A stretch of DNA of 64,000 nucleotides, taken from assembly GCA_036490475.1 (NCBI GenBank), contig DASXDT010000006.1:744001-808000 (forward strand). The letters run 5' to 3'. Source of the DNA: Candidatus Tumulicola sp. (GTDB lineage: Bacteria > Vulcanimicrobiota > Vulcanimicrobiia > Vulcanimicrobiales > Vulcanimicrobiaceae). Below are positions 176-23,472 of this stretch, in pieces; position 1 is the first letter of the stretch; every line of letters begins with the position of its first letter. The position numbers were made by a program, and so were the translations under genes. Under the pieces are notes generated by a model. It saw only the letters and a list, made by a program, of their open reading frames with translations. It searched no databases and was not told the DNA's origin.

Positions 176-1453
176 TCAGGCGAAGGTTGGTGTCGATCGA
201 ACGAGCCGACTCACACCAGCGCTCTCTTGAGTTTCACAATGTTCTTCAGCAACATATCGCTGAGGCCGCCGAGCGCCACCGTCGGCCGGCAACGGCTCGT
301 CTCTGCCAGAATCTAACGGGAGAGCGCAGGGTTGATGGATCGCGTACTTGACCGGCGTCGGTCGCTCCGGTGTGCCGTCGCTGAGGAACCGGCCACGCGC
401 ACCCTCCAAATATGTTTGCTCGAGTTCGCAGCAGAGCCAGCGGCGCTTTAGAGTTTCCGCAACCTCGCCGGTTACACACGAACCGGCGAATGGATCTAAC
501 ACGGTGTCCCCCGGATCGGTTAGCATTCGGATGAAGTATTCAGGGAGCGCTGCGGGATAGCGTGCGGGGTGAGGCTGGATGCCGTGTTGCTTGCAATATG
601 CCTGATAACGACCGTTAGATTCGGTGTTTGCTACTGCGAGTAAGTTCGGCGGAACAGATCCGGCATTTCGTTTCGAAAAGTTCTCGGAAATGTCGTGCCC
701 GGACGGACGCAATTTCGCCTTATAACCGTTTTTCAAGAGGTATTCCATGGCTTCGGAGTACGGAGCAAGAACGCGCTTATTGCTTGCTTTCGGCCACGGC
801 GTTTTGCTCAACCACCAAACGGTATTGATCGCATCCTTGACGCGTACGCGACGGATGTTCACCCACTCCGCAGGCGTGGGAAGTTTGGCCGGGTTCCACC
901 AGTAGTGCTCCTGACACAAATGAAAGCCGTACTCTCTGCAGAGCATGATCAACAATTCGAAGTGATAGAGCGATCTGGCGGGGATACCGGGCTTCCACGA
1001 TCCGCCAATATCTATGACCAAGCTTCCTTTTGGAGCAAGTACTCGGTTAAAGCCTTCAGCAAATGGGCGGAACCATTGCAAGTATGCATCCGCGTCCTCA
1101 TTCCCATACGATTTTTTTCGCACCAAGCCGAATGGGGGCGAGGTCATAATTAAGTTCACAGAATTCGGGGCGAGCGTGTGATGCATCAACCCCAGTGAAT
1201 CACCCAGGTACATAGTCCCGCTCGGTGTGTGGTGGAACTGACGCGGCCGCCCGTAACGGGAATCGGCTTTTTTCCTTTGCGCATTTTCTGCTGACATACT
1301 CTGCCTGTACGCGACGTGAAGGTAACGCACGTACTGGCTGAGTGACTCGAACCCCAAGGTTCGATACTCGGCTTCCATTTGGGAGCGCTCAGTTGACGTT
1401 AGGCGGACGTTGGCGATCGAGATCCTAGGGGCGGGGGACTTCGGTCTGCCCAT
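176..1453 (-). CDS. Site-specific DNA methyltransferase with N-terminal ribbon-helix-helix-like segment
   Basis: 425 aa. The permuted (beta-class) order of motifs is visible: catalytic TSPPF at about residues 104-108 and the AdoMet-binding DPFAGS at about 320-325. This class transfers methyl from AdoMet to an exocyclic amine, either N4-cytosine or N6-adenine; which one cannot be told here. Residues 1-50 precede the catalytic domain and resemble ribbon-helix-helix segments of DNA-binding or mobilisation proteins (ERSQMEAEYRTLGFESLSQY). The start at 1453 is chosen because AGGAGA lies 4 nt upstream; the frame stays open for another 151 codons, but these are low-complexity read-through overlapping the divergent gene. 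A small unknown gene follows downstream, and a small HTH gene diverges upstream. No recognisable restriction endonuclease is present in the window. Confidence 0.88.
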   Translation of the reverse strand: MGRPKSPAPRISIANVRLTSTERSQMEAEYRTLGFESLSQYVRYLHVAYRQSMSAENAQRKKADSRYGRPRQFHHTPSGTMYLGDSLGLMHHTLAPNSVNLIMTSPPFGLVRKKSYGNEDADAYLQWFRPFAEGFNRVLAPKGSLVIDIGGSWKPGIPARSLYHFELLIMLCREYGFHLCQEHYWWNPAKLPTPAEWVNIRRVRVKDAINTVWWLSKTPWPKASNKRVLAPYSEAMEYLLKNGYKAKLRPSGHDISENFSKRNAGSVPPNLLAVANTESNGRYQAYCKQHGIQPHPARYPAALPEYFIRMLTDPGDTVLDPFAGSCVTGEVAETLKRRWLCCELEQTYLEGARGRFLSDGTPERPTPVKYAIHQPCALPLDSGRDEPLPADGGARRPQRYVAEEHCETQESAGVSRLVRSTPTFA

Positions 1454-1482
1454 TGTTCTCCTAGCAGGCTTCGGCTGAAACG

Positions 1483-1511
1483 AGTATAGCTCAGGGTTTC
1501 TTGTATTACAA
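1483..1511 (-). promoter_or_regulatory. Probable promoter of the methyltransferase gene
   Basis: On the minus strand TTGTAA (1511-1506) and TATACT (1488-1483) are separated by 17 nt, a good sigma70-type match. The -10 lies about 30 nt upstream of the methyltransferase ATG at 1453. The -35 hexamer sits inside the palindrome at 1494-1518. Confidence 0.55.
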
Positions 1512-1518
1512 GAACCCC
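1494..1518. promoter_or_regulatory. Palindromic operator candidate between methyltransferase and HTH gene
   Basis: A 25-bp inverted repeat with arms 1494-1505 and 1507-1518 around one central T; 11 of 12 pairs match and the core is CTTGTA-T-TACAAG. It covers the -35 of the methyltransferase promoter and lies 43 bp before the small HTH gene, the arrangement expected for a controller-protein operator. Confidence 0.5.
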
Positions 1519-1560
1519 TCTGGGAGGAATCAACCCAGTGTGGCTCGTTGCTAGAGGGCC

Positions 1561-1779
1561 ATGAAGAGCAGCTTGACCTACCGGGACGCAGAACATGAGG
1601 GAAGAGCCTCCGCGCTCCGCAACCGAATAGAGACAGCCGGCTTGACGATTGCGGAATTTCGTCGGCGAGCCGGCTTCTCTCGAAATATTGCCTACGCCAT
1701 TTCCAAGGGGCGCGAGATGACACCAGATGAGCGAAAGCGAGCCGACAAGGCCCTGGAGGGCGGCAAGGCCCCAAACTAG
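1561..1779 (+). CDS. Small XRE-like helix-turn-helix protein, possible controller
   Basis: 72 aa. Residues about 17-65 fit a compact XRE-type helix-turn-helix (AGLTIAEFRRRAGFSR as recognition region, then a basic C-terminal helix). It is transcribed divergently from the methyltransferase with a palindrome between them, so control of the methyltransferase, and perhaps itself, is a reasonable inference. The ribosome-binding site is weak (GAGGG very close to the ATG). The gene overlaps the read-through extension of the methyltransferase frame, which supports the shorter methyltransferase start. Confidence 0.6.
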   Translation: MKSSLTYRDAEHEGRASALRNRIETAGLTIAEFRRRAGFSRNIAYAISKGREMTPDERKRADKALEGGKAPN

Positions 1780-2444
1780 CCGAGTCGTAGGTGGTTCGGA
1801 ACGTCCTGAGCGCTCCAGGAGCACCAGGTGTCCCGAGTCCGACCGCTGGTTCTAGTTGCGGGTCTACAATGAAGTCGCGCTGAGGGCCAGAGCTACCGAA
1901 AGACATGCGCAGGAGAACTCATTCTGCTCGTCTGCATCGCAATAGGTCTGGCGATCGAAACCATTCAATGAGGACAGGCCACCTACGTTCCATACCGGAG
2001 CGGGAATGTGCGAGACTCAGTTCGCAAGTAATTAGAAAGTTGCGTTCGACCTGGACTGCGACGAAGCTTCGGAGCCAACCCACAGGTGCGTGCCAGCAGA
2101 TTAGGCGCTCATCGTCGGCTTCTCAGGAAGATCCTGACAACGGCTTGCTCGCCAGCGTGGCCCGTGTGTTGCACTCTACAATCTGACCGGCTGTGACGAG
2201 GTGCGCTGATCACGGGAGGTCGAAGCGGCCTGAGCGCAACGCCCGCGCTTCGCTAGTGGATCGCCACGTCGGGGCGCAGAAGGCACATGAATGCTCTGCG
2301 GAACCCGCCTTGTTTTTGCTGTAGTGACCGTGGATCTCAGCGAGATACTACGCTGGTTATCAATCGTTTGAGGTCGACATTCCGATCGGGATCTTTGCGG
2401 CCCTAATACTTAAGGGACATACCCTATCCCGAGGAAACGACGAT
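1780..2444. other. 665-bp stretch without a convincing gene
   Basis: The open frames here (for example 1905-2186 on the plus strand) are rich in R, S and T, lack a ribosome-binding site and resemble nothing known. I see no tRNA, repeat array or clear terminator. It may be remains of decayed cargo. Confidence 0.4.
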
Positions 2445-3416
2445 ATGCTTTGCATCTTCTGTATTCAAGAGCGACCAGCACGTTCCGGTGCTGGCGAACA
2501 CCCTATCCCGCTTTCTGTCGGAGGTTCGTGGGCTATTGATCGCGTGTGTGAAAAGTGCGATAACGAGTTCGGTTACACACACGATGCGCTGCTGACAAGG
2601 GTGACAAGCGTAGCTGCGCGGAGAGCCCAACTTGGCCTTGCCGGCAATTCCGGCCGAGTTCCAGTTAATCCGAGTGAAGTGCTGCCTCGCCATCCAGTCA
2701 GTGTCGTCGACGCGCCGTATCACAAAATGATATTGCGTCGGGATGTCGCCGGCAAGATCAAGGCAAGATCAATTCCGAACATCGAATTCGATATATCGGA
2801 TGGAGACGGCGAGGGAGTGCTGGTCGCCATACGGCCTGAAACCTTCGTGATCGACGTGATTCCCGAAATTGAAGCGGTAGAACTTATCACGCGACGACTA
2901 ACGCGCGCTCTGGAAGAGCGGGGCTTCCAATTTAATAACGAAATTATCGAAGCGGCCGCTGAAAAGCTATTTAGCCAAGTCTCCGTCTTCGAGCGACCGA
3001 TTACGGTGCGTGTGGAGCGCAAGACCGTGAATAGGGGCTTCGCAGCGTCGCTGTTCAAGGCCGCATACGAGGCCGCATGGTACTGGCTCGGCGACGATTG
3101 GCTATCCGACCCCGAAGCAGATCGCATGCGGCGTCACTTGAGAGGGGACGAATCGATTCTTATAAGGGGCGCTATTCAGGCAGGAGAGATTCGTCCAGTT
3201 CGTGTCGCACCTGCCACACGATCTGCGGCCCACGTAATTTACTTAGTAAATGCCGTTGCCTGCTTTACGGTCGAGCTTCAGCTTTTTGATATCTTTAGCA
3301 TCGGCGTACTTGTCACGAATGAGCCGGGCCGCTACACGGTCCGGAAGTTCTCGGCAATTATTATGGACGCGGTCGGCGGCACTTTTCGAGAACTCGCGTC
3401 GAATGAGCTTTTCTAA
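2445..3416 (+). CDS. HNH-endonuclease-like protein with N-terminal zinc site
   Basis: 323 aa, with GAGGAA about 8 nt upstream of the ATG. The first 42 residues carry an HNH/McrA-type pattern: C3-x2-C6, then E18-H19-x-IP, then C35-x2-C38-D-N40, the usual zinc-plus-metal finger order of small HNH nucleases. The remaining 280 residues, mixed alpha/beta with a conserved-looking IVDVIPEIE-like middle, are not recognised and could determine target or partner. HNH proteins of this form occur in restriction and other defence loci; here it lies among accessory genes 0.7 kb from a methyltransferase. Nuclease activity is inference from the motif only. Confidence 0.6.
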   Translation: MLCIFCIQERPARSGAGEHPIPLSVGGSWAIDRVCEKCDNEFGYTHDALLTRVTSVAARRAQLGLAGNSGRVPVNPSEVLPRHPVSVVDAPYHKMILRRDVAGKIKARSIPNIEFDISDGDGEGVLVAIRPETFVIDVIPEIEAVELITRRLTRALEERGFQFNNEIIEAAAEKLFSQVSVFERPITVRVERKTVNRGFAASLFKAAYEAAWYWLGDDWLSDPEADRMRRHLRGDESILIRGAIQAGEIRPVRVAPATRSAAHVIYLVNAVACFTVELQLFDIFSIGVLVTNEPGRYTVRKFSAIIMDAVGGTFRELASNELF

Positions 3417-10282: not shown

Positions 10283-11299
10283 ATGCGTCTCTTATTCGGA
10301 TCGGCTGCGGCAGTTGCCGCGATAACCCTCTGCTCATGCGCTGCCTCGAGTGACGTCACAACTTCGAACCCCACGACTCATGAGGCGGCGGTCAAGTCAC
10401 TTCGTCACGCTACTTTCAGCCAACTGTTAGTTGTGGCGAGCCAAGGCAACAAGTCGATCTTATCGTTCGGCATCCCGACGACGAGTACGGCCCAGTCGCC
10501 GTACCAAGATATACATGGGTCAAGCACGGACATAACCACAACGCTAACTTCAGTGTCAGTTGGACCTTCCGGGCACATTTTTTCAAGCAACTTCGGAGAC
10601 TCCGGTTTACGGTTGTACAAGTACGCGACTGGCGCCAGCGGAAATGTTTCTCCTCAGGCGACCCCTGATGCCGAAGGATTCCCCCTTGGCGTAGCTGTTG
10701 ATTCCGGTGGCAATATTTGGAATGGCTGGTACGCGCCGTCAGAATACGATTCGATATCCGTCCAGTCGAGCAGTTTTGCTTACATAAAAACAATTGGTGG
10801 AGCGCATACAGGCCTAGTTGGACCTTACAGCCTGGCTTTTGATGCTTCCGGCAACGTGTACGTCGCGAATGATTATCCCTATCCTTCCACCGTCTCCGGC
10901 AACGTAGAAGAGTTCGCATCTAGCGCTACGGGCAACGCTTACCCCAGTAAAGTTATATCGGGATCGCACACTCTTATTGTTCAACCAACAGAAGTTTGGG
11001 TCGACCAGAGCACCACCGGGATGGGAAGACTTCTGGTGTCCGATTATGACGGGAACGTGTTAGTATTCGGCAGTACCGCATCGGGCAATGCGACTCCAGT
11101 CCAAGATATCACTAGCGTCGCGCATCCGACGGGCGTTACTACAGACAGCTCAGGAAATATTTACGTATCAGTGCCAAACGATAACTCGATACGCGTATTC
11201 TCACCCGGAGCAACCGGAAACGCTACGCCGACAACAGTTATAAAAGGATCCTCGACGAACATTAGCAACCCGAAACAACTTTACATGGCTCCCTTCTGA
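10283..11299 (+). CDS. Beta-propeller lipoprotein, copy 1 of a tandem pair
   Basis: 338 aa. The signal peptide ends in a lipobox-like LCSC (cysteine at about residue 19), so export and lipidation are likely. The mature part is a run of roughly 40-residue NHL/SMP-30-like blades, each with a D-x-x-G-N-I/V-Y-V strand (FDASGNVYVANDY, TDSSGNIYVSVP) and a following F-x-S/P-x-A-T-G-N-A-x-P segment. Such propellers bind ligands or form surfaces; no catalytic site is visible. The ribosome-binding site is AGGAG. The gene is nearly identical in plan to the one at 11903 and is also related to 25879-26838 and the broken copy at 7947. It ends before a hairpin at 11369. Confidence 0.8.
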   Translation: MRLLFGSAAAVAAITLCSCAASSDVTTSNPTTHEAAVKSLRHATFSQLLVVASQGNKSILSFGIPTTSTAQSPYQDIHGSSTDITTTLTSVSVGPSGHIFSSNFGDSGLRLYKYATGASGNVSPQATPDAEGFPLGVAVDSGGNIWNGWYAPSEYDSISVQSSSFAYIKTIGGAHTGLVGPYSLAFDASGNVYVANDYPYPSTVSGNVEEFASSATGNAYPSKVISGSHTLIVQPTEVWVDQSTTGMGRLLVSDYDGNVLVFGSTASGNATPVQDITSVAHPTGVTTDSSGNIYVSVPNDNSIRVFSPGATGNATPTTVIKGSSTNISNPKQLYMAPF

Positions 11300-11902: not shown

Positions 11903-12919
11903 ATGCGTATCTTTCTTGCGTCAACCGCAGTTGTTGTGGCATCAACTCTGTGCGCTTGCGCCGCCTCCAATGGTTTCGCAAATTCGAATCCCTCGACTCA
12001 AGGAGCAGCAACGAAGTCACTTCGCCACGCTACTTTCGGCCAACTATTAGTCGTGGCTAGCCAGGGTAATAAATCGATCTTGTCTTTCGGCATCCCGACG
12101 ACGAGTACGGCCCAGTCGCCATACCAAGATATACATGGTTCAAGCACGGACATAACCGCCGCACTAAAGTCAGTGTCAGTCGGACCGTCCGGGCACATCT
12201 TCTCGAGTAACTTCAGCGACCCGCATATTCGGTTGTACAAGTACGCAACGGGCGCAACCGGAAATGTGGCGCCGCAAGCGACTCCTGGCTCTGAAGGACT
12301 TCCACTCGGTGTAGCTGTTGATTCTAGCGGCGACATTTGGAACGGCTGGTACGCGCCCTCCGAAGACACTTCGATAACCGTTCGGTCTAGCGGCTTTACA
12401 TACATAAGAACGATCGGCGGATCCCACACCGGCCTATTTGGACCCGACAGCCTAGCTTTTGACGCCTCAGGCAATGTGTACGTTGCGAATGATAACGCTT
12501 ATCCCTCTACTAATCCCGGCAACGTGGAAGAGTTCGCATCTAGCGCTACGGGCAACGCTTATCCCAGTAAGGTTATATCGGGCCCCCACACTCTTATTGT
12601 TCAACCAACCGAAGTGTGGATCGACCAGAGCACGTCCGGGATGGGAAGACTTCTTGTATCCGACTATGGTGGGAACGTGCTAGTCTTCAACAGCACCGCT
12701 TCGGGCAATGCGACTCCAGTCCAAGATATTACTAGCGTCGCGCATCCGACGGGCGTTGCTACAGACAGCTCGGGAAATATTTACGTATCAGTGCCGAACG
12801 ACGACTCGATACGCATATTCTCACCCGGAGCAACCGGAAACGCCACGCCGACAGCGGTCATAAAAGGATCCACGACGAACATCAGCAACCCAAAGCAGCT
12901 TTATATGGCTCCGTTCTAA
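11903..12919 (+). CDS. Beta-propeller lipoprotein, copy 2 of a tandem pair
   Basis: 338 aa, exactly the length of copy 1 and without gaps by eye. The signal peptide ends LCAC. The mature propeller keeps the same blades; long DNA stretches are identical, for example around 12090-12120 compared with 10470-10500. Differences are concentrated in the N-terminal 40 residues and around residues 100-165, and many are conservative. This indicates a tandem duplication with a unit of about 1620 bp, followed by divergence or partial gene conversion. The ribosome-binding site is AGGAG. The ligand and role are unknown. Confidence 0.8.
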   Translation: MRIFLASTAVVVASTLCACAASNGFANSNPSTQGAATKSLRHATFGQLLVVASQGNKSILSFGIPTTSTAQSPYQDIHGSSTDITAALKSVSVGPSGHIFSSNFSDPHIRLYKYATGATGNVAPQATPGSEGLPLGVAVDSSGDIWNGWYAPSEDTSITVRSSGFTYIRTIGGSHTGLFGPDSLAFDASGNVYVANDNAYPSTNPGNVEEFASSATGNAYPSKVISGPHTLIVQPTEVWIDQSTSGMGRLLVSDYGGNVLVFNSTASGNATPVQDITSVAHPTGVATDSSGNIYVSVPNDDSIRIFSPGATGNATPTAVIKGSTTNISNPKQLYMAPF

Positions 12920-14313: not shown

Positions 14314-14835
14314 TCATGACTTGAGAGAAGACGCGCCACGAACATCTATCCGCACGACCTCTGCCTGGTTAGCTTTGCCGCGCAAGGTAATAATGATCGC
14401 GTTCGGTTGAACTTCGAAAAAGGCTGCCGCGAGCAAGAGCCTTGCAAGGCTCAAAGTTGTGCGTCCCTTCTCGAACTGTGAAACGGCGGACTGCGAAACG
14501 CCAATAGCTGACGCCAATGCTCCTTGCGTAACCTTCGCTCGACGTAGAACTTGAAACGCGCCGCGATCGGGTTCCCACCTTCCCGTATTTAGACCCCGGG
14601 CATCAAGAAACTGCCGAAGTTTCGTGAAGGCGACGCTGAAATTTCCGGTTCGATACTCGATCTGAATATCCCGAAGTAGCCCATCTTTAGATTCGGGAAT
14701 TCGATCGTCCGCCAATGCGCGACAGAGAAAGACCAAGTCGGGATCGTTTTCATGAATCGCCGCGCTTACAAAATCCATCCAGGTCAACTCAGCTTCGCAC
14801 GCCGTGGCAGGCTTGTCAAGTATATGCGACATCAC
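14314..14835 (-). CDS. XRE-family regulator of the HD-PRTase cassette
   Basis: 173 aa. The C-terminal half holds an XRE helix-turn-helix at about residues 95-150 (KVTQGALASAIGVSQSAVSQ, then FEKGRTTLSLARLLL). The N-terminal 75 residues form a helical domain, TWMDFVSAAIHENDPD..., which loosely resembles the YozE SAM-like fold. The start is GTG 14835 or ATG 14832. Neither has a Shine-Dalgarno sequence, so leaderless translation is possible. A nested 30-bp palindrome (14834-14863) covers the start, which implies autorepression. The gene diverges from the two-gene unit beginning at 14963, which it probably also controls. Confidence 0.75.
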   Translation of the reverse strand: MMSHILDKPATACEAELTWMDFVSAAIHENDPDLVFLCRALADDRIPESKDGLLRDIQIEYRTGNFSVAFTKLRQFLDARGLNTGRWEPDRGAFQVLRRAKVTQGALASAIGVSQSAVSQFEKGRTTLSLARLLLAAAFFEVQPNAIIITLRGKANQAEVVRIDVRGASSLKS

Positions 14836-14863
14836 TTATACTAGTAATGTTACTTCTATAAGT
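14834..14863. promoter_or_regulatory. Nested 30-bp palindromic operator
   Basis: Two inverted repeats share the same centre (between 14848 and 14849): outer arms ACTTATA (14834-14840) and TATAAGT (14857-14863), inner arms AGTAA and TTACT (14843-14854) around TG. Only the 2-nt linkers do not pair. The site is AT-rich, overlaps the regulator start codon and lies 100 bp from the divergent gene, as expected for an XRE dimer operator. Confidence 0.6.
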
Positions 14864-14962
14864 ACTATTTAGAATACAGTAGTGCGGCCGGGTTGGACCG
14901 GGGAGACCTTGCTGGCCACACGAACATATGTTCGATTGATTTTTAGTAGAGAGGTTCCCAAA

Positions 14963-15346
14963 ATGGCTTCAGTGGGTAGTGACGAGTTTTTTGCCGGCTT
15001 CTTGGCCGGAGTGGCGCTTCTTCGTCTTCGCCTTACGGGCGGCCGGGTGGTCCTCAATCGTGCCTTCTGGAGTGCCCTTAAGGCTCCAGAGGGCGACTTC
15101 GTCGATCGTGATGCCCTAGCGATTGACTATGATCCGCTTTACGCGGTAAGCCCGTGGTTCGAACGTGCCCTCACCCGCGCACAGAGAGATTTGCTGATTG
15201 GCTTTCCCAATCCGAGCTATCAGGATGTGGAGATTAGGCTGAGCCCCGAGCAAGCGCAACAGCTTCTTCGTGCGACTCCTGATGGAGAAAAGTTGAAGGC
15301 GCTCGCGAAGCGCTTTGTGGAGAACATTAGTTGCGCTGCGTCGTGA
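14963..15346 (+). CDS. Small protein preceding the HD-PRTase gene
   Basis: 127 aa. The ATG at 14963 is chosen for GAGAGG about 6 nt upstream; the longer open frame from 14882 has no such site. The sequence has an N-terminal helix rich in small and hydrophobic residues (EFFAGFLAGVALLRLRL), too short and polar for a clear membrane anchor, then an Asp-rich middle and a helical C-terminus. No family is recognised. Its last 32 nt overlap the start of the HD-PRTase gene, so the two are translationally coupled and probably act together. Confidence 0.7.
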   Translation: MASVGSDEFFAGFLAGVALLRLRLTGGRVVLNRAFWSALKAPEGDFVDRDALAIDYDPLYAVSPWFERALTRAQRDLLIGFPNPSYQDVEIRLSPEQAQQLLRATPDGEKLKALAKRFVENISCAAS

Positions 15347-18041
15347 CATTTCGAAATTGAGGCCGCTCCCTCCCATTCTGGGCGGCTTATCCGCTGATCT
15401 GCAGGCGTTTTTCGGCCCCCGACTACGCGAATATTCTGAACGACAGCGGCATACCAAGCCGAGGCCGACAAGGCCAAAAATCATCAACGACGCGATTTGG
15501 AAAACCGTTCGCCTGGAGCCGTGGGAAGGCATCATCCTCGACACATATCCGCTCCAACGGCTGCGAAGTGTTTGTCAGCTAGGACTAGCCCGACTCGTTT
15601 ATCCTGGAGCGGGTTATACGCGATTCGAACATAGTGTCGGAGTGCTTTATCAAACGCAACGAATGATCGATTCAATCAATCATAACGCTCGCTCAGAAGG
15701 TCGAGGTATCAATCCTCTACTTCCGCGCGATGAAGCTTTGCTACGATTAGCTGGGCTATTACACGATATCGGGCACGGTTTTTTAAGCCACGTTTCTGAA
15801 CGCGCAATGTCTCGGATATCCGCGCTTCCCCACAGCGGATCGGCCGAGGACGCGAGAGCCGAAGCGAGGGTTTATTTCTCCACTAGAAAGCTGCCCGCAT
15901 TCGCAGAGCTTCTAGCCAGCTTGATAATCCTATTGCCGGAGTTCACGGAAATCCTGGAACTCGCCAACATCCCAACCTGGCCTGATGCGGAGAACCTCGC
16001 AGATCACATTGCTCATTTAATCGTTGGTGGAAACTTGAATTCATCTCGTCCTTTCCTAGGCGAGATAATCTCAGGGGCCGTGGACGCGGACAAACTCGAT
16101 TATATGACACGTGATTGCGTTCTAGCGGGGTTACCAATGCCCGTCGATGTCGAGCGCCTACTCCAAAAGCTGCAAACCGTTGCAATATCAACAAGTAGCG
16201 AACAAGGCCGCCCCTGGGCCGAGTTCGCTGGCCTGCCGCCAAATCAGTCGATTTACATGATGGCCATGGACGAACGGGGCGGGATTGCTGCCGAAGAGCT
16301 CGTTGTCAGCCGCGTGCTCTTATATGACAAACTATATCATCACCAGAAGATTCGGGCTTTCGAAGGCCTCGCCGAAGCGGCACTTGATGTACTTATCGAC
16401 TGCGTTCCCACCTTCCAGTCTCCCGTAACGTATCTAGAACTGAGCGATGCCGATTTTTTGGAAGCAAAATGGCCGACGCAAGGTTGTACTGACAAAGACA
16501 AATTGGCTTTAGCTAAGGACTTGGTACGAAGAATTTCAGATCGGCACGACATCGCTCGGGCCATTGCCTTTGGTCCAAACTTGATCGACAGCGCGACCCC
16601 TGTGATGGTCTGGCGAAGATTGTTACCATTTGTAACGCGCGAACGCAATGCCAACACCACGAAGTTCAGATCACTTATTACGGAACGTGCCAAACAATAT
16701 CTCATCGCAGCCGGAAAAGCATCGTTATCCGACTCCCTTATTGAAGAACTGATAATTGTCGATTTACCGGATCCTCAGGGGATAACGGAAAAAACTCGTT
16801 TCCTCGTAGGAAACGAAAGCACCGGTGTGCGACTATATGCCGAAGTTGCTCGGGTGGATCGCTGGGCCGAGGCATACGAAGCTGACAAGAGCATTGGCTA
16901 CGTCTATTGTCCCCCTGAGCATGTGTACGCAGTTCACTTAGCCGCACGTTCGGTAATTAAGGACCTGTCGGGCGTCGAGATGGAAGATCGGCAACTGACG
17001 CTGACAAAGATGGACGCCAATAGGCTGAATGAATTTGCCGAAATCGTCCGCGGTCAAAATATCGATGTGCCAGCGGTTCATGTATCCGCCGGTTTAAAGC
17101 AGGACACTCCGATGGTTCTAGCTCATGATGTAGAAAAGACATATCAATCGGATATTGAATTCCTAGGCGAACAATTTCGAAGTTATGAACCGTTCGATGG
17201 TCCGCGCATAGACGCAGCGTACATCGTAAACTGGCTCGTGCAGTTTCCCCGTGATGATATTCCGTTGGTTATCCGGGTTCTACGCAACGTGCAATTTTGG
17301 ACGAGGCAAAGAGTAGCGGACGGTTTCAAAGTATTTTTCGAAGATTGCACCTGTACATCAATGCAGCTTCTAGCGCTTGGGGGACCGACGACAAGCGCAG
17401 GTCATCTCCAGTATTTGATGCACGATCTGCGCGATTTAACGATCGATCTGAAAATACTAGGCTCCCCTGGTGAAATCGATCCAGCAGTTCCGCTAGTTCT
17501 GTTTGACGATTTCATAGGCTCAGGTGGGCAAAGCCGCACCGCCGTTATGCAGTGGTACGACGCGCCGCCGAATGAATGGATCGTTCACGAAAGACACTTT
17601 GAGCCGCTTAGTCCGGACGTGCGCGCAAAAATTGAAGCATCTAACATCACCTGTTTATTTGTCGCCGGTCGTCGGCCGGGCCTGCGCGCATTGCGTGATA
17701 CAATGAAAGAATACACCGGGCTCGATGTGGCCGGATACATCGCTGAGCCCCGTGACTATGACTGTTTTAGATTAGTCTCCAATATTTTTGAACGCTCCGC
17801 AGACGCTTCTCGAGCGAGAGACATATTTTTCGACGCTGGAATGAAGGCTCTCGCTGATGAAGACTGGACTCCTGAAAAGAAGCGTGGACGAGCACTTGGA
17901 TACGGTAACAAAGCTGATCTCAATGTTTTTTATTACAACACGCCATCATCCACACTAAGCGCACTCTGGAGCGGCACAGTTCAAGCGGCCGACCCTTGGA
18001 TGCCGCTATTCAAACGCCGTCGCCGCCCGGCAATAGTCTGA
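15315..18041 (+). CDS. HD phosphohydrolase - phosphoribosyltransferase fusion (conflict-system type)
   Basis: 908 aa from TTG 15315; a start slightly downstream is possible. Residues 60-270 carry a SAMHD1/dNTPase-like HD domain with all metal ligands: H106 in RFEHSVGV, H150-D151 in LLHDIGHG, and D259 in VDADKLDYMTRD. A long linking region follows. Near residues 727-737, LVLFDDFIGSGGQS matches a PRPP-binding loop of type I phosphoribosyltransferases. The last 40 residues (GYGNKADLNVFYYNTPSSTL, then LW and PLFKRR) match the C-terminal pattern of the PRTase-CE family described from conflict systems. The known activities of these folds are removal of phosphates from (d)NTPs and PRPP-dependent transfer or sensing. 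Which one operates here is inference. The gene follows the 127-aa partner and faces tniQ, in the cargo slot beside the Tn7-like module. Confidence 0.8.
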   Translation: MWRTLVALRRDISKLRPLPPILGGLSADLQAFFGPRLREYSERQRHTKPRPTRPKIINDAIWKTVRLEPWEGIILDTYPLQRLRSVCQLGLARLVYPGAGYTRFEHSVGVLYQTQRMIDSINHNARSEGRGINPLLPRDEALLRLAGLLHDIGHGFLSHVSERAMSRISALPHSGSAEDARAEARVYFSTRKLPAFAELLASLIILLPEFTEILELANIPTWPDAENLADHIAHLIVGGNLNSSRPFLGEIISGAVDADKLDYMTRDCVLAGLPMPVDVERLLQKLQTVAISTSSEQGRPWAEFAGLPPNQSIYMMAMDERGGIAAEELVVSRVLLYDKLYHHQKIRAFEGLAEAALDVLIDCVPTFQSPVTYLELSDADFLEAKWPTQGCTDKDKLALAKDLVRRISDRHDIARAIAFGPNLIDSATPVMVWRRLLPFVTRERNANTTKFRSLITERAKQYLIAAGKASLSDSLIEELIIVDLPDPQGITEKTRFLVGNESTGVRLYAEVARVDRWAEAYEADKSIGYVYCPPEHVYAVHLAARSVIKDLSGVEMEDRQLTLTKMDANRLNEFAEIVRGQNIDVPAVHVSAGLKQDTPMVLAHDVEKTYQSDIEFLGEQFRSYEPFDGPRIDAAYIVNWLVQFPRDDIPLVIRVLRNVQFWTRQRVADGFKVFFEDCTCTSMQLLALGGPTTSAGHLQYLMHDLRDLTIDLKILGSPGEIDPAVPLVLFDDFIGSGGQSRTAVMQWYDAPPNEWIVHERHFEPLSPDVRAKIEASNITCLFVAGRRPGLRALRDTMKEYTGLDVAGYIAEPRDYDCFRLVSNIFERSADASRARDIFFDAGMKALADEDWTPEKKRGRALGYGNKADLNVFYYNTPSSTLSALWSGTVQAADPWMPLFKRRRRPAIV

Positions 18042-18085: not shown

Positions 18086-18931
18086 CTAGATCCTAAACAT
18101 TCGATCGATTGCTTGTAGATCGGCACCAGGTCTTTCGTACTTGCAAATTAACGTCATTAGGGTGCTACTGCGAGTCCGCACCCGTTGCCGGCCAAACCTG
18201 GCCTTACGGCTCCACGACGAAATAGTTCGATGCGTACCATGAAACAATGAGCTCGATACGTTGTTCATCAGGTAGTTATGCAAGTGTACCAATTCATCAG
18301 GTGCTGCCTTCGACGGACCTTGAAGGTCACCGCCACACGACGTACAAACGAATCGAAGCGCGATATTTTTGTGGGTGGGCGGCTGCTGGGTGCATATTCG
18401 AATCGGACGATCGCAAATATCGCAGGCATCTGAGAGATAGACTCCATGCCTCGGGCAAATGGTGGAAACCGCTAGACGCCACGCCTTTCTATAGTACGCA
18501 ACATGATCATCGAGAATGCAAAGGTGACAATACTGCAAGCCGTACGTTCGTCGCTTTCCAGAGCCGTTAGAGAGTGGCATTACCGCTATTTCCACCGGAT
18601 GCCGGGTCGACATAACGTCTTCCGTTAGGAAGGTCGTCTGAACTACCCGCTTAACGAGCACTCCGGTACCAATCGAGATTGCTTCGATAAGGCCTTGGGG
18701 CGCCTGCATATCGATGTCTCGAGTCCAGATCGGGCCGCCGAGAGCGGCTCGCGCAAAATTCGTGAGACTCATTCCGTGCCCAAGCGCGATGCGCGTAAGC
18801 CACGAAGAAAGCAGCTCGTCGGGTAATGGTGCCGGATGATACGGCCAGCGCACTGGAGCCGTTTCGAACGCTGCCCTACCCAGCATGCCGTCGCTTTCGC
18901 TGCGACGGGGTGACGTAATCGACTTTTTCAA
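18086..18931 (-). CDS. tniQ: TniQ/TnsD-family target-selection protein
   Basis: 281 aa from TTG 18931, or 266 aa from ATG 18886. The N-terminus PYHPAPLPDELLSSWLTRIA is the typical TniQ opening, and four Cys pairs follow: CHLC, the C-PRHG pair, CDIC, and CTSCGG. TniQ proteins bind the attachment site, or a CRISPR effector in CAST elements, and recruit TniB/TnsC. The length is well below TnsD and Tn5053 TniQ, so the C-terminal target-reading part is short. It is the last gene of the leftward tnsA-tniA-tniB-tniQ operon and overlaps tniB. It converges on the HD-PRTase gene, 44 bp away. Confidence 0.88.
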   Translation of the reverse strand: MKKSITSPRRSESDGMLGRAAFETAPVRWPYHPAPLPDELLSSWLTRIALGHGMSLTNFARAALGGPIWTRDIDMQAPQGLIEAISIGTGVLVKRVVQTTFLTEDVMSTRHPVEIAVMPLSNGSGKRRTYGLQYCHLCILDDHVAYYRKAWRLAVSTICPRHGVYLSDACDICDRPIRICTQQPPTHKNIALRFVCTSCGGDLQGPSKAAPDELVHLHNYLMNNVSSSLFHGTHRTISSWSRKARFGRQRVRTRSSTLMTLICKYERPGADLQAIDRMFRI

Positions 18932-19760
18932 TCAATTTCGCGTCTATACGTTCGCGCTTTGTCTCTACAGCGAGCACGGCTGCTCGAGTAAGCAATGTGG
19001 CGATTTCGCCGATTGTTCCTTCACTTTTCCCGAGAATCGTGGCTGCTAGTGTCGTCTCGACGAGATCGGAACGTTCGCGAAGTGGGAGCATCGCTTCGAA
19101 GCTCGCCAATAGCCGGAGAAATTCTTCATCGAACTTCCAGCGAGGGAGCAGTACTGGTTCGAAGCGATTCGCCAGTTGCGGATCCGATTGAAGCGCATGC
19201 AGCGCATCGCTCGTTCCTACGCCCACAATCGGAATTTGGAGTTCGTTTCCAAGATATTTGATAGTGTTGAGGAATACGCGCTGGCGCTGAAGGCTGCCGG
19301 CGATTATGTGGTGGATCTCGTCGATGACGAGCACCCTGATGCCGATCGCTTTGAAAAGTGTGAGTACCTGCAGCAATCGTTGCTCAGCATTGCTGCTTGG
19401 GCGCATTGGCGCGTACAACGTATGCAGTATCTCGCCATAGAAGCGCGTTTCGGTTGGGTTGCTTGGCGCCTGAACAACCAACACCGGAGCACTGATGGCG
19501 TCGATTGTGCGATTATCCGAAGGAGGATGCCGAAGCCGGAACTCGTTTACGATCTTGGTCTTACCATTGTTTGTTTCGCCGACGATGACCATGTTCGGCA
19601 TGCGATGCGTCTTGGGATGGTGTAATAGGTCTTCAAGTTTCTTGAGGAGGTCGCTCGCCCTGCTATATCCGATCCAACGGTCGCTTCGGATGTGCTGGAT
19701 ACGCTCCGCTTCCGTAAGCTCCAGCGCTTGACGCGCCCGCTCTTGCAGATGCTCGGTCAC
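18876..19760 (-). CDS. tniB: TniB/TnsC-family AAA+ transposition ATPase
   Basis: 294 aa. Walker A GETNNGKT (residues 61-68) and Walker B VLVIDEIHH (D147, E148) are intact, with a sensor-like GVGTSDAL after them. In Tn7-like transposition this AAA+ protein forms filaments on target DNA, links TniQ to the transposase and provides target immunity. The GTG start overlaps the tniA stop as GTGA, so the genes are translationally coupled. Its length is normal for TniB and shorter than Tn7 TnsC. Confidence 0.92.
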   Translation of the reverse strand: MTEHLQERARQALELTEAERIQHIRSDRWIGYSRASDLLKKLEDLLHHPKTHRMPNMVIVGETNNGKTKIVNEFRLRHPPSDNRTIDAISAPVLVVQAPSNPTETRFYGEILHTLYAPMRPSSNAEQRLLQVLTLFKAIGIRVLVIDEIHHIIAGSLQRQRVFLNTIKYLGNELQIPIVGVGTSDALHALQSDPQLANRFEPVLLPRWKFDEEFLRLLASFEAMLPLRERSDLVETTLAATILGKSEGTIGEIATLLTRAAVLAVETKRERIDAKLIEKVDYVTPSQRKRRHAG

Positions 19761-21610
19761 GTCTCGCGCAGGTCTTCAAAGGGTCGAATTTTACTGTAAT
19801 CAATTTTTTGGGCTAACGGGCTTGTATCAGTATCCGTTACGCGCGGCTTACTAATGCGCGCGTGTTCAAGACGCCGCTGCCGATTGCGTCGCACAGTCCG
19901 CGTTTCTTTCGCCGCTTCATCTTGGTAGGATCGTAGCCGCACGGCGGACTCCATGAGCGCCCCCTCATCAACCGATGCCCTTCCCTCACGCAGTAGCGCT
20001 GCCCGAGCCTCGCGCAGTTCCCAGATGCTTATGGCGGGAAATGCACTGTTACGATACGGAATTGCACAATAATGCTTAAGTTCCGGATCGAAGAAGTATA
20101 GGACGCTAATGTCCCTTGGGTCTCGACGAAAAAGGTACTTTCGGTTTCGCTCTTTCCCCGTCGAATGGATGTAAGGACGTAAGACGTCATGGTAATAATG
20201 AATATCGTCCGCCACGACGCCATACGGCTGAACGGTACGCTGCACGAACGGCATAAAGTCCAAGCGAAATTTGTCTTCGTCGACAACCTTTCGCGGCAGG
20301 CCAATGGCTGGTTTACTCGCGTCCCCTCGAAATCCATGTTCGTAGCGGTCAGCCGGGCTGGCCTTTATGGAAGTATGCAAACGTTGATGATAGCTGCCCG
20401 TAAAAAATTCGGCAATTGACTTCTCAAGCTCGGTGACAGTAAAAACGGCCTTCTGGCCGGAGTCATACTCGGCTTTCTGTTTCGGATTGGAAAATGTAGC
20501 TCCCAGCCAATTCTTGAGTTCAATGGCCACCGTTCCCATTAGGCGTTCAATATGCGCCCCGAAGTGTGGAACCTTGACGGGCCGGAACTCGAGATTGAAG
20601 CCATACTCCTGCGCGCAGCGATGTAGCATCTTACTATGAAACTCGCGACCGTTATCAGCATGCACCGTATGGGGAATCCCCCAGCATCGCCAGGTTGTGG
20701 AAAGACCCAGACCCGCGAGATACACGTCTTTTTGTAAGATACTGTTAACGAGGCACAATCCGACGGCTGCATCGCCCGGGGGGTCGAGCGAAAGATAGAA
20801 GCCGGTGACCATGCGACTGTAAACGTCAATCGCCAGTGTCAGCCAGGGACGTCCCAGCGGTCGACGGCTGATTTCGTCGACGCACTCAATATCAACTTTG
20901 GTGTGATCGATTTGAACGATCTGAAGCGGCCACTCGGCGGCGAACCGGCCGGGACGCGGCTCGAAACGATCCGCGGCTTTCTTTTTATTTGCGCGGCGTC
21001 GCAAACGAACTTCTTCGGTAATGGTCAAGATGCGCCGCCGCACCGTCGTTAAATGCGGGGCTTGAATGCCTGCGGTCGCGCATCGCTGCATTACCGTTTT
21101 AGTGGTAGCTTGAATCGAAGGCTGCTGTTCCTGAAGATACGTGTCGTCGATTGTCGCCGTCAGAATTGCCTCAACGGCACTCTCTAAGCGACTCTTACCA
21201 CGGCCGCCGGTCGGCTTATGTGGCAGTAGCCCGGAAATTTTGCCCACCGACTCATAATCGGCGATCCAGCGGTACATCGTCGTGACATGAACGCCAGCGC
21301 CCGCAGCGACACGCTCGACATCTGCCCGCCGCCGCCCAGTCTCGGTGAGGATCTGTTGCACGTACGAAAACCGGCGCTGCGCTTCTTGCCAATCTGCATC
21401 GTTAACTAAGGCCAGTTCGACGTCATCGCTTTTTTCGGTTGATTCAGATCTGACGGGAAGCATGTCGGCAATAAACAAGCGTTGGCATTTGCCGGTTTGA
21501 GGATCCTCGGCGAGTACGCTTTCAACGTCAATGTAGCTGATAACCAGGTACCGGTGCCCCTTGACCATTACCTCGCTCCCAGGGGCGATCGTGAGTGTGG
21601 CTAGAGCCAT
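19757..21610 (-). CDS. tniA: TniA/TnsB-family DDE transposase
   Basis: 617 aa. N-terminal HTH regions (about 85-200, including GVHVTTMYRWI) for end binding are followed by a retroviral-integrase-like core. The catalytic triad is D235 (VQIDHTK), D319 (VHADNGREFH) and E355 (HIERLMGT). A Mu-type beta-barrel domain lies at about 440-530, and the basic tail after 560 is the part that usually contacts TnsC. It carries out 3' strand cleavage and joining at the element ends. The first 10 nt overlap tnsA. The gene looks intact. Confidence 0.93.
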   Translation of the reverse strand: MALATLTIAPGSEVMVKGHRYLVISYIDVESVLAEDPQTGKCQRLFIADMLPVRSESTEKSDDVELALVNDADWQEAQRRFSYVQQILTETGRRRADVERVAAGAGVHVTTMYRWIADYESVGKISGLLPHKPTGGRGKSRLESAVEAILTATIDDTYLQEQQPSIQATTKTVMQRCATAGIQAPHLTTVRRRILTITEEVRLRRRANKKKAADRFEPRPGRFAAEWPLQIVQIDHTKVDIECVDEISRRPLGRPWLTLAIDVYSRMVTGFYLSLDPPGDAAVGLCLVNSILQKDVYLAGLGLSTTWRCWGIPHTVHADNGREFHSKMLHRCAQEYGFNLEFRPVKVPHFGAHIERLMGTVAIELKNWLGATFSNPKQKAEYDSGQKAVFTVTELEKSIAEFFTGSYHQRLHTSIKASPADRYEHGFRGDASKPAIGLPRKVVDEDKFRLDFMPFVQRTVQPYGVVADDIHYYHDVLRPYIHSTGKERNRKYLFRRDPRDISVLYFFDPELKHYCAIPYRNSAFPAISIWELREARAALLREGRASVDEGALMESAVRLRSYQDEAAKETRTVRRNRQRRLEHARISKPRVTDTDTSPLAQKIDYSKIRPFEDLRET

Positions 21611-22344
21611 AGCCGACTCGCCATCGTGAGCGGCTGATCCAAATCGACGCTAATCCGTCGCGTTCCGACCAAGTTCCAAAGGGTGGGGACGAGCTGGGCT
21701 TGATTTCCGACGTCGAGATAGATAGAGGCCAACAGGCCATCGGCGGTCGCCTCTCGGAGCTCATTGAGACTGTCGAGCAGCACTGCCGCGTCGTCCTGAT
21801 TGGGAGCGTACCGCACGTACGGGAGCAGAAAGCGAGCATTGGAGAGGTACGTGGTTCGTATATGGCGGTCAGTGATGATCTGGAACTCCCAGCCGTGTTC
21901 CTTGGCGTACCTGCTGGCCGCAAGCAAGGCTGGTTTGAAGTCTCGCCATTTTGCGCGTAGTTCGGCATCGTATTTCACCTGATAGAGGCGAGACCGCTGA
22001 CCCGGCAGCCGCTCCTGGTCGAAATGGACGAGGAAGTCCGGGACGTGATAATGACGGCGACCGTCCCGGCCACGGAAGGCGATACGGACCGGCTGCTCGT
22101 CATAATCGTGGACCGTGGGATCGAATTCCACCAGCGTGATGAAGTCGCGCTCGAGGGTCGATTCGAAAGCATGACTACGGCCAGTTTTATGGCTTGCATG
22201 ATGGCCCGTGACGCTCATTCGGTTCGGCGGAACCTGCCGTACACTCACGTCATCTTTACCTTCCCAGAACTGGTAGCTCCGACTTAGCACGAATTTCGAA
22301 CTAGTCGCGCCAACTCCCCTTCTTGGTCGCGTCGACTTAGACAT
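21601..22344 (-). CDS. tnsA: TnsA-like endonuclease
   Basis: 247 aa. The restriction-enzyme-like TnsA core is visible: E61/E65 in FESTLERDF, D103 in HVPDFLVHF, and Q122-x-K124 in YQVKYD. In Tn7, TnsA cuts the 5' strands at the transposon ends so that the element moves by cut-and-paste. Its presence next to a TnsB-type transposase separates this element from Tn5053-like and type V-K elements, which lack TnsA and form cointegrates. It is the first gene of the operon and lies nearest the element end, as in Tn7. Confidence 0.9.
   Translation of the reverse strand: MSKSTRPRRGVGATSSKFVLSRSYQFWEGKDDVSVRQVPPNRMSVTGHHASHKTGRSHAFESTLERDFITLVEFDPTVHDYDEQPVRIAFRGRDGRRHYHVPDFLVHFDQERLPGQRSRLYQVKYDAELRAKWRDFKPALLAASRYAKEHGWEFQIITDRHIRTTYLSNARFLLPYVRYAPNQDDAAVLLDSLNELREATADGLLASIYLDVGNQAQLVPTLWNLVGTRRISVDLDQPLTMASRLWL

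Positions 22345-23472
<1,128 letters not shown>

Follow-up and report, generated by a model that had tools for sequence, protein, structure and literature searches.

A SAMHD1-like HD phosphohydrolase fused to PRTase-CE, with a predicted winged-helix partner: a candidate anti-phage cassette beside a Tn7-like transposon

Clover pairs a dGTPase, CloA, with a nucleotidyltransferase, CloB (PMC12265719), and is by analogy the closest functional precedent for the cassette described here: a deoxynucleoside triphosphate (dNTP) hydrolase, or dNTPase, held back by its partner's product. Phosphoribosyltransferase (PRTase) proteins are known from retron type III-A, which consists of a reverse transcriptase (RT), a PRTase, and a winged-helix protein (PMC12548924), from a combination of DprA and PRTase that protects against T7 and lambda (PMC9122126), and from a PRTase-labeled system among validated defense systems (PMC13092281). 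We analyzed a cassette in a 64,000-nt stretch of a Candidatus Tumulicola sp. contig (the window), in which a 908-amino acid (aa) protein joins a SAMHD1-like HD phosphohydrolase core to a C-terminal PRTase-CE domain. Its gene follows that of a 127-aa protein, and the pair faces the gene of a 173-aa XRE regulator across an intergenic region. All three open reading frames (ORFs) were confirmed, and the original prediction's observation of an HD–PRTase fusion with a small partner and an XRE gene is real. Judged by sequence, the joining of PRTase-CE and a SAMHD1-like dNTPase core, alongside a predicted winged-helix protein, appears to be new, its parts being known; we found no description of the HD–PRTase-CE architecture in open-licence PMC papers, and an earlier notice elsewhere is possible. 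On balance, though by no means firmly, we predict that this mobile cassette acts against phages or mobile elements by depleting dNTPs and is kept tightly repressed under XRE and SOS control.

Pfam searches of the 908-aa protein returned HD (PF01966, E 5e-9) and HD_assoc_2 (E 2e-7), PADLOC gave a weak dGTPase match, and the closest solved sequence relatives of the HD part were HD phosphohydrolases and SAMHD1. An AlphaFold2 (AF2) model built from 20 homologues was confident across most of the HD region, and residues 53 to 560 superposed on SAMHD1 residues 114 to 581 (7a5y) with a VIA Z of 34.4 and a root-mean-square deviation of 3.0 over 411 residues. The HD site that had been read from the letters (H106, H150-D151, and D259) is present and matches SAMHD1 by both sequence and predicted fold; together with H154, H159, and E162, these residues are invariant in a 20-sequence alignment (A5) and in all 30 sequences of the tree alignment. 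Pairwise alignment further places D76, Q81, and R84 opposite SAMHD1 D137, Q142, and R145, which form the guanine-specific allosteric (A1) site. The HD part is thus best described as a putative enzyme, a SAMHD1-like dNTPase core with metal ligands and catalytic residues intact. With SAMHD1 and the HD-type dNTPases of Enterococcus faecalis it shares the predicted catalytic-core fold (Z 33–34), the metal ligands, the catalytic residues, and counterparts of the A1 residues; unlike these enzymes, the cassette adds a C-terminal PRTase-CE domain and an operon partner. The proposed profile assignments held for HD and for PRTase-CE but found no support for HD-CE, a family not among the Pfam matches of the protein at E up to 1, in a search whose HMMER filters can lose weak matches. 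The region instead matches PF01966 and HD_assoc_2 and is SAMHD1/dGTPase-like.

The C-terminal assignment was clearer at the profile level. PRTase-CE (PF24390) spans residues 639 to 901 with an E-value of 2.3e-23 and 83.8 bits against a gathering score of 27, bearing out the PRTase-CE-like C-terminus of the original prediction. Its PRPP (phosphoribosyl pyrophosphate) loop is likewise there, with the DDxxGxGxQ pattern intact as DDFIGSGGQ at residues 731 to 739. PADLOC PRTase_III-A also matched (E 3.5e-18), and the NCBIfam DS32_1 model matched the C-terminal 80 residues weakly (E 0.001). Across four aligned PRTase fusions, the loop residues D, D, F, G, G, and Q are invariant and a C-terminal LGYG motif is kept; a fifth (L095; homologous loci carry L numbers) has a similar loop. 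In BFVD, a viral-structure library, two proteins matched this part weakly, one with PRTase-CE (E 9.5e-4) and one with a phosphoribosyltransferase domain (E 5.5e-3); no significant sequence relative of the domain was found in the PDB. Among the open-licence PMC papers searched, we found none that states a biochemical activity for PRTase-CE, nor any that uses this term.

The company kept by stand-alone PRTase-CE genes in the sampled genomes supports, along with the published examples, the claim that the domain recurs in defense systems. Such genes adjoin ORC-CDC6-like ATPases at L093, L099, and L105, a NADAR gene at L103 (and, by sequence resemblance, at L102 and L104), and an RT gene at L106, a retron III-A-like locus. 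Systems that combine PRTase-CE with an ORC-CDC6-like ATPase, NADAR, or DprA, and those described by NCBIfam DS32_1, share the Pfam domain with the cassette, an intact loop being established for the ORC-CDC6-like and NADAR neighbors, and in all of them the domain probably serves as one and the same kind of effector or sensor. It forms a separate protein of about 300 to 440 aa in those systems, whereas in the cassette it is fused to a dNTPase core. Retron III-A likewise has a PRTase-CE-type domain and a small winged-helix protein; in contrast, the partner family of the cassette tracks the HD clade and not the PRTase. The cassette is not a retron, because it lacks an RT (its neighbors are XRE, the partner, and tnsABC-tniQ) and no Rfam match was found between 10 and 24 kb of the window. 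Homology between the partner and the small ORF beside the retron-like PRTase of L106 was also rejected, as the partner profile did not hit that ORF. PRTase-CE is sparse in the phylum (3 of 148 genomes above the cut-off, 4 of 148 at E 0.001) and in the class of L044, where 6 of 369 genomes encode it, one as a fusion. As a separate observation, a PRTase-CE and NADAR-like pair is apparently recurrent, occurring in three genomes (L102 to L104), two of which also carry a type I restriction methyltransferase-like gene there.

We asked what the 127-aa protein might be. It has no Pfam match and no significant sequence relative in the PDB. Its AF2 model (predicted local distance difference test score, pLDDT, 88.5) has a winged-helix-like order of elements and matches many winged-helix domains with a VIA Z of about 6; a specific relative could not be named, this value being equally common to the unrelated winged helices of MukE, JetB, ORC, RTP, and LmuC. 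Each family sequence was then held out in turn, and a hidden Markov model (HMM) of the remaining ones was searched against 6,679 ORFs; the held-out model recovered the 127-aa protein at E 9.3e-13, and the best non-family ORF with the full model scored E 0.16. On this basis, the protein belongs to a divergent family, for which a winged-helix fold is predicted. A small ORF of about 125 to 180 aa sits 5′ of nearly every HD gene of the clade, and the partner was present at 25 of 27 HD-clade loci: all five with a fused PRTase, 10 of 12 with HD only (L050 and L051 lack it), and all 10 of the nuclease type described below, a class that includes L048 and L055 by similarity only, their HD genes being broken. 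The neighborhood survey therefore upholds the association of the two genes, which is found again in other genomes. In the window, the 32-nt overlap between them holds with the TTG start at 15315; with an alternative in-frame TTG at 15357, it becomes a 10-nt gap. The relative encoded at L033 aligns to the fusion only from about residue 18.

Like Clover, the cassette pairs a putative HD dNTPase effector with a partner of its own that would regulate it, and its catalytic motif has the spacing (HD, H+9, E+12) seen in CloA at H117/D118, H126, and E129 (PMC12265719). It differs in that the partner is a predicted winged-helix protein rather than a Pol-beta nucleotidyltransferase, and in that its HD core is SAMHD1-type with a fused PRTase-CE. 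Membership in Clover was rejected because the partner is not a nucleotidyltransferase; none was found among the genes scanned from 14.3 to 22.3 kb.

The winged-helix fold could also mean that the 127-aa protein is merely a transcriptional autoregulator and that the fusion works alone, and the Nocardioides partner (L049:7039-7470, HMM E 1e-8) is encoded on the opposite strand. Nonetheless, we regard this as distinctly improbable: the partner is retained while the neighboring regulator swaps between XRE and a MerR-like gene, which the nuclease-type relatives carry in place of XRE, and the two proteins have diverged strongly together, a pattern that suggests protein contact. Nor is XRE supported as an obligatory third component, given the same exchange and the three PRTase loci at which no XRE gene was identified.

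To place the fusion among its relatives, homologues were drawn from plasmids, viral contigs, and GTDB genomes; the counts leave out the bulk of the phylum's HD matches, which are housekeeping proteins of about 400 to 500 aa. The HD clade has three kinds of C-terminus, namely, none (proteins of about 510 to 570 aa), a putative PD-(D/E)XK nuclease, and PRTase-CE. The putative nuclease was read from a GGExD...ENK pattern, a motif that Pfam did not match. Five PRTase fusions were found; one is split, its gene running off the end of one contig (L047) and resuming on a second contig from that genome (L095), and the halves correspond to the L033 protein up to its residue 387 and from its residue 389 onward. 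In the HD-core tree, the nuclease type forms a clade with support of 1.00, the HD-only proteins, including two from Clostridia, form one with 0.97, and a split of 0.89 sets the PRTase type apart from all others. Because the types group separately, the tree suggests a single gain for each C-terminal domain. Three long relatives of 866 to 933 aa (L043:4882-7482, L077:3111-5912, and L079:6891-9647) instead carry N-terminal extensions; that of L043 resembles a protein kinase fused to HD, another SAMHD1-like HD architecture.

We examined the region upstream of the operon for regulatory sequences. The expected operator exists as sequence: the stretch at 14813-14842, which matches a sigma-70-like promoter, is overlapped by an inverted repeat, although promoter-like matches hereabouts are about as numerous as chance would give. 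The XRE protein has HipB-like helix-turn-helix (HTH) similarity. Upstream of the 127-aa gene lies a perfect LexA-type box, CGAACATATGTTCG, of the B. subtilis type GAACN4GTTC (PMC4234289). The genome of the window has 26 CGAACN4GTTCG sites, compared with 5 for a reversed control, some of them 5′ of genes for a DnaE-type polymerase, ftsY-recA, and darT-macro; it encodes LexA, with two one-mismatch boxes 5′ of lexA. With a box upstream, LexA encoded, and the motif at SOS genes, the cassette looks like a LexA-regulon member. The Nocardioides and other PRTase loci were searched after the window's box had been found, and the Nocardioides cassette has a box, CGAACAAATGTTCG, 5′ of its XRE gene; that genome has 13 sites in 4.9 Mb, compared with 0 for the control, and by our own arithmetic any one 150-bp stretch has a chance of about 4e-4 of holding one of the 13. 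Elsewhere in the window, a second perfect box, CGAACGTTTGTTCG, lies at 22425-22438 between tnsA and an aldo/keto reductase gene, so the transposition genes could be SOS-controlled too. The DarT and macro-domain (DarG-like) genes that lie 3′ of a LexA-type box are at L136:713-1390 and 1-699 (C5 of the same genome, about 355 kb).

The contexts of the family are often mobile. The window cassette abuts a Tn7-like tniQ-tnsC-tnsB-tnsA array; L033 and L034 lie within phage tail and head gene modules, L035 to L037 are plasmids, L095 adjoins an integrase, and at L044 a weaker match to one lies about 5 kb off. Elsewhere in the phylum, in a distant genome, an HD-only member and its small partner sit between HmaA and HmaB of an Hma defense system (L039:1852-12160). 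Such carriage on plasmids and phages and beside a transposon would also suit an addiction (toxin–antitoxin-like) module that stabilizes a mobile element, with the dNTPase as toxin, the 127-aa protein as antitoxin, XRE as repressor, and defense secondary if it occurs. The small gene precedes, in tight linkage, that of a potentially toxic enzyme, the XRE protein has a HipB-like HTH, and in Clover the related effector CloA turns toxic once its regulatory enzyme is lost (PMC12265719). We nevertheless consider this unlikely, since HD-only proteins encoded among chromosomal housekeeping genes have this partner too, a setting where an addiction role is hard to credit, and since the accessory C-terminal domains would be unnecessary.

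Several observations weigh against the reading that we prefer. D76, Q81, and R84 would suit nucleotide activation, but a housekeeping HD protein encoded in this genome keeps them as well; they are therefore neither specific to the cassette nor a pointer to defense. The PRTase part of the AF2 model has low pLDDT, which leaves that fold without independent support. The window's LexA box was spotted post hoc, and no box of the types searched lies at three proteobacterial or phage PRTase loci. Neither a repeat search nor local alignment of the tnsA side with the sequence left of the cassette revealed transposon ends, nothing rising above shuffles; with the tnsABC-tniQ genes adjacent, carriage by the transposon, as originally proposed, is likely, although its boundary did not appear. 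(The aldo/keto reductase loci of relatives do not share the window's flanks, making a flank comparison uninformative.) Finally, an HD-only relative with the same partner (L056) sits between gyrA and gyrB, and two more (L054 and L062) lie in chromosomal neighborhoods that read as ordinary from their sequence. Because several HD-only relatives adjoin housekeeping genes, the HD–partner core is not inherently a defense gene, and these relatives make a metabolic role possible.

SAMHD1-like enzymes have housekeeping roles too. The cassette might encode a DNA-damage or nucleotide-pool enzyme outside immunity: once induced by SOS, the dNTPase would slow replication or sanitize the pool, and PRTase-CE would recycle bases. 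LexA-type boxes at two of the five PRTase loci, the gyrase-linked relative, and those housekeeping roles would agree with this. We think it quite unlikely given the very patchy distribution, the occurrence in phage structural modules and on plasmids, and the defense genes that PRTase-CE accompanies elsewhere.

Defense by dNTP depletion, our preferred reading, is partly supported by the catalytic residues, the company and sparsity of PRTase-CE, the linkage of the partner, the mobile contexts, the Hma island, and the LexA boxes. What stands of the regulated nucleotide-targeting immune module first proposed is the pair of domains, the recurrent two-gene association, the mobile contexts, and the place of PRTase-CE in defense; HD-CE, the transposon boundary, and an obligatory XRE found no support. 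As a mechanism, XRE and LexA would hold the operon off until DNA damage or phage replication lifts repression, and the HD enzyme, possibly nucleotide-activated like SAMHD1, would then hydrolyze dNTPs and starve replication. The winged-helix protein may be more than a transcription factor, binding the HD enzyme to restrain or gate it, because the HD clade retains it although the transcription regulator varies (XRE or MerR-like). PRTase-CE, like the exchangeable C-termini of the relatives, could supply a second nucleotide- or PRPP-directed activity or a nucleotide sensor, and we rank neither. More tentatively, and with greater doubt than belief, the relatives may form a modular immune family in which a winged-helix subunit gates a SAMHD1-like dNTPase that carries swappable C-termini (none, putative PD-(D/E)XK, or PRTase-CE) and is SOS-inducible in some hosts; the domains of the PRTase form would act in sequence or cross-regulate, for example with PRPP or nucleotides sensed or consumed by the PRTase and dNTPs destroyed by the HD domain.

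Because SAMHD1-like dNTP hydrolysis is chemically well understood, its natural fusion to PRTase-CE makes a question testable, namely, whether PRTase-CE acts on the same nucleotide pool as an effector or senses it. The winged-helix partner may represent a second way, beside the nucleotide signal of Clover, to keep a dNTPase safe in uninfected cells, and the LexA-type box would link the module to DNA damage or prophage induction. Coordinates are collected in Table 1.

Table 1. Positions in the window of the cassette, its sites, and the adjoining transposon genes.
Feature	Position	Strand	Detail
908-aa fusion: SAMHD1-like HD phosphohydrolase core (~53-560) and C-terminal PRTase-CE (639-901)	15315..18041	+	
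HD active-site region	15630..15800	+	H106 15630-15632; H150-D151 15762-15767; H154, H159, E162 15774-15800
D259 of the HD site	16089-16091	+	
PRPP-binding-type loop DDFIGSGGQ, residues 731-739	17505..17531	+	
127-aa partner, predicted winged-helix fold	14963..15346	+	AF2 model, held-out HMM, VIA
173-aa XRE (HTH_3) regulator, divergent to the operon	14314..14835	-	PF01381 E 2.3e-9
Operator-like inverted repeat, 14-nt arms, 86% complementary	14834..14863	no strand	
Perfect LexA-type (SOS) box, 28 nt 5′ of the 127-aa gene start codon	14921..14934	no strand	CGAACATATGTTCG
TniQ, neighboring Tn7-like transposon	18086..18931	-	PF06527 E 8e-23
TnsC/TniB ATPase	18876..19760	-	PF05621 E 8e-74
TnsB transposase	19757..21610	-	PADLOC TnsB E 2e-37
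TnsA endonuclease	21601..22344	-	PF08722 E 3e-15

Left of the cassette, two tandem, closely alike repeat proteins of 338 aa with signal-peptide-like N-termini are encoded at 10283-11299 and 11903-12919. DNA methyltransferase-like and HNH-like genes at the left end of the window (176-3416) possibly mark another mobile or restriction segment.

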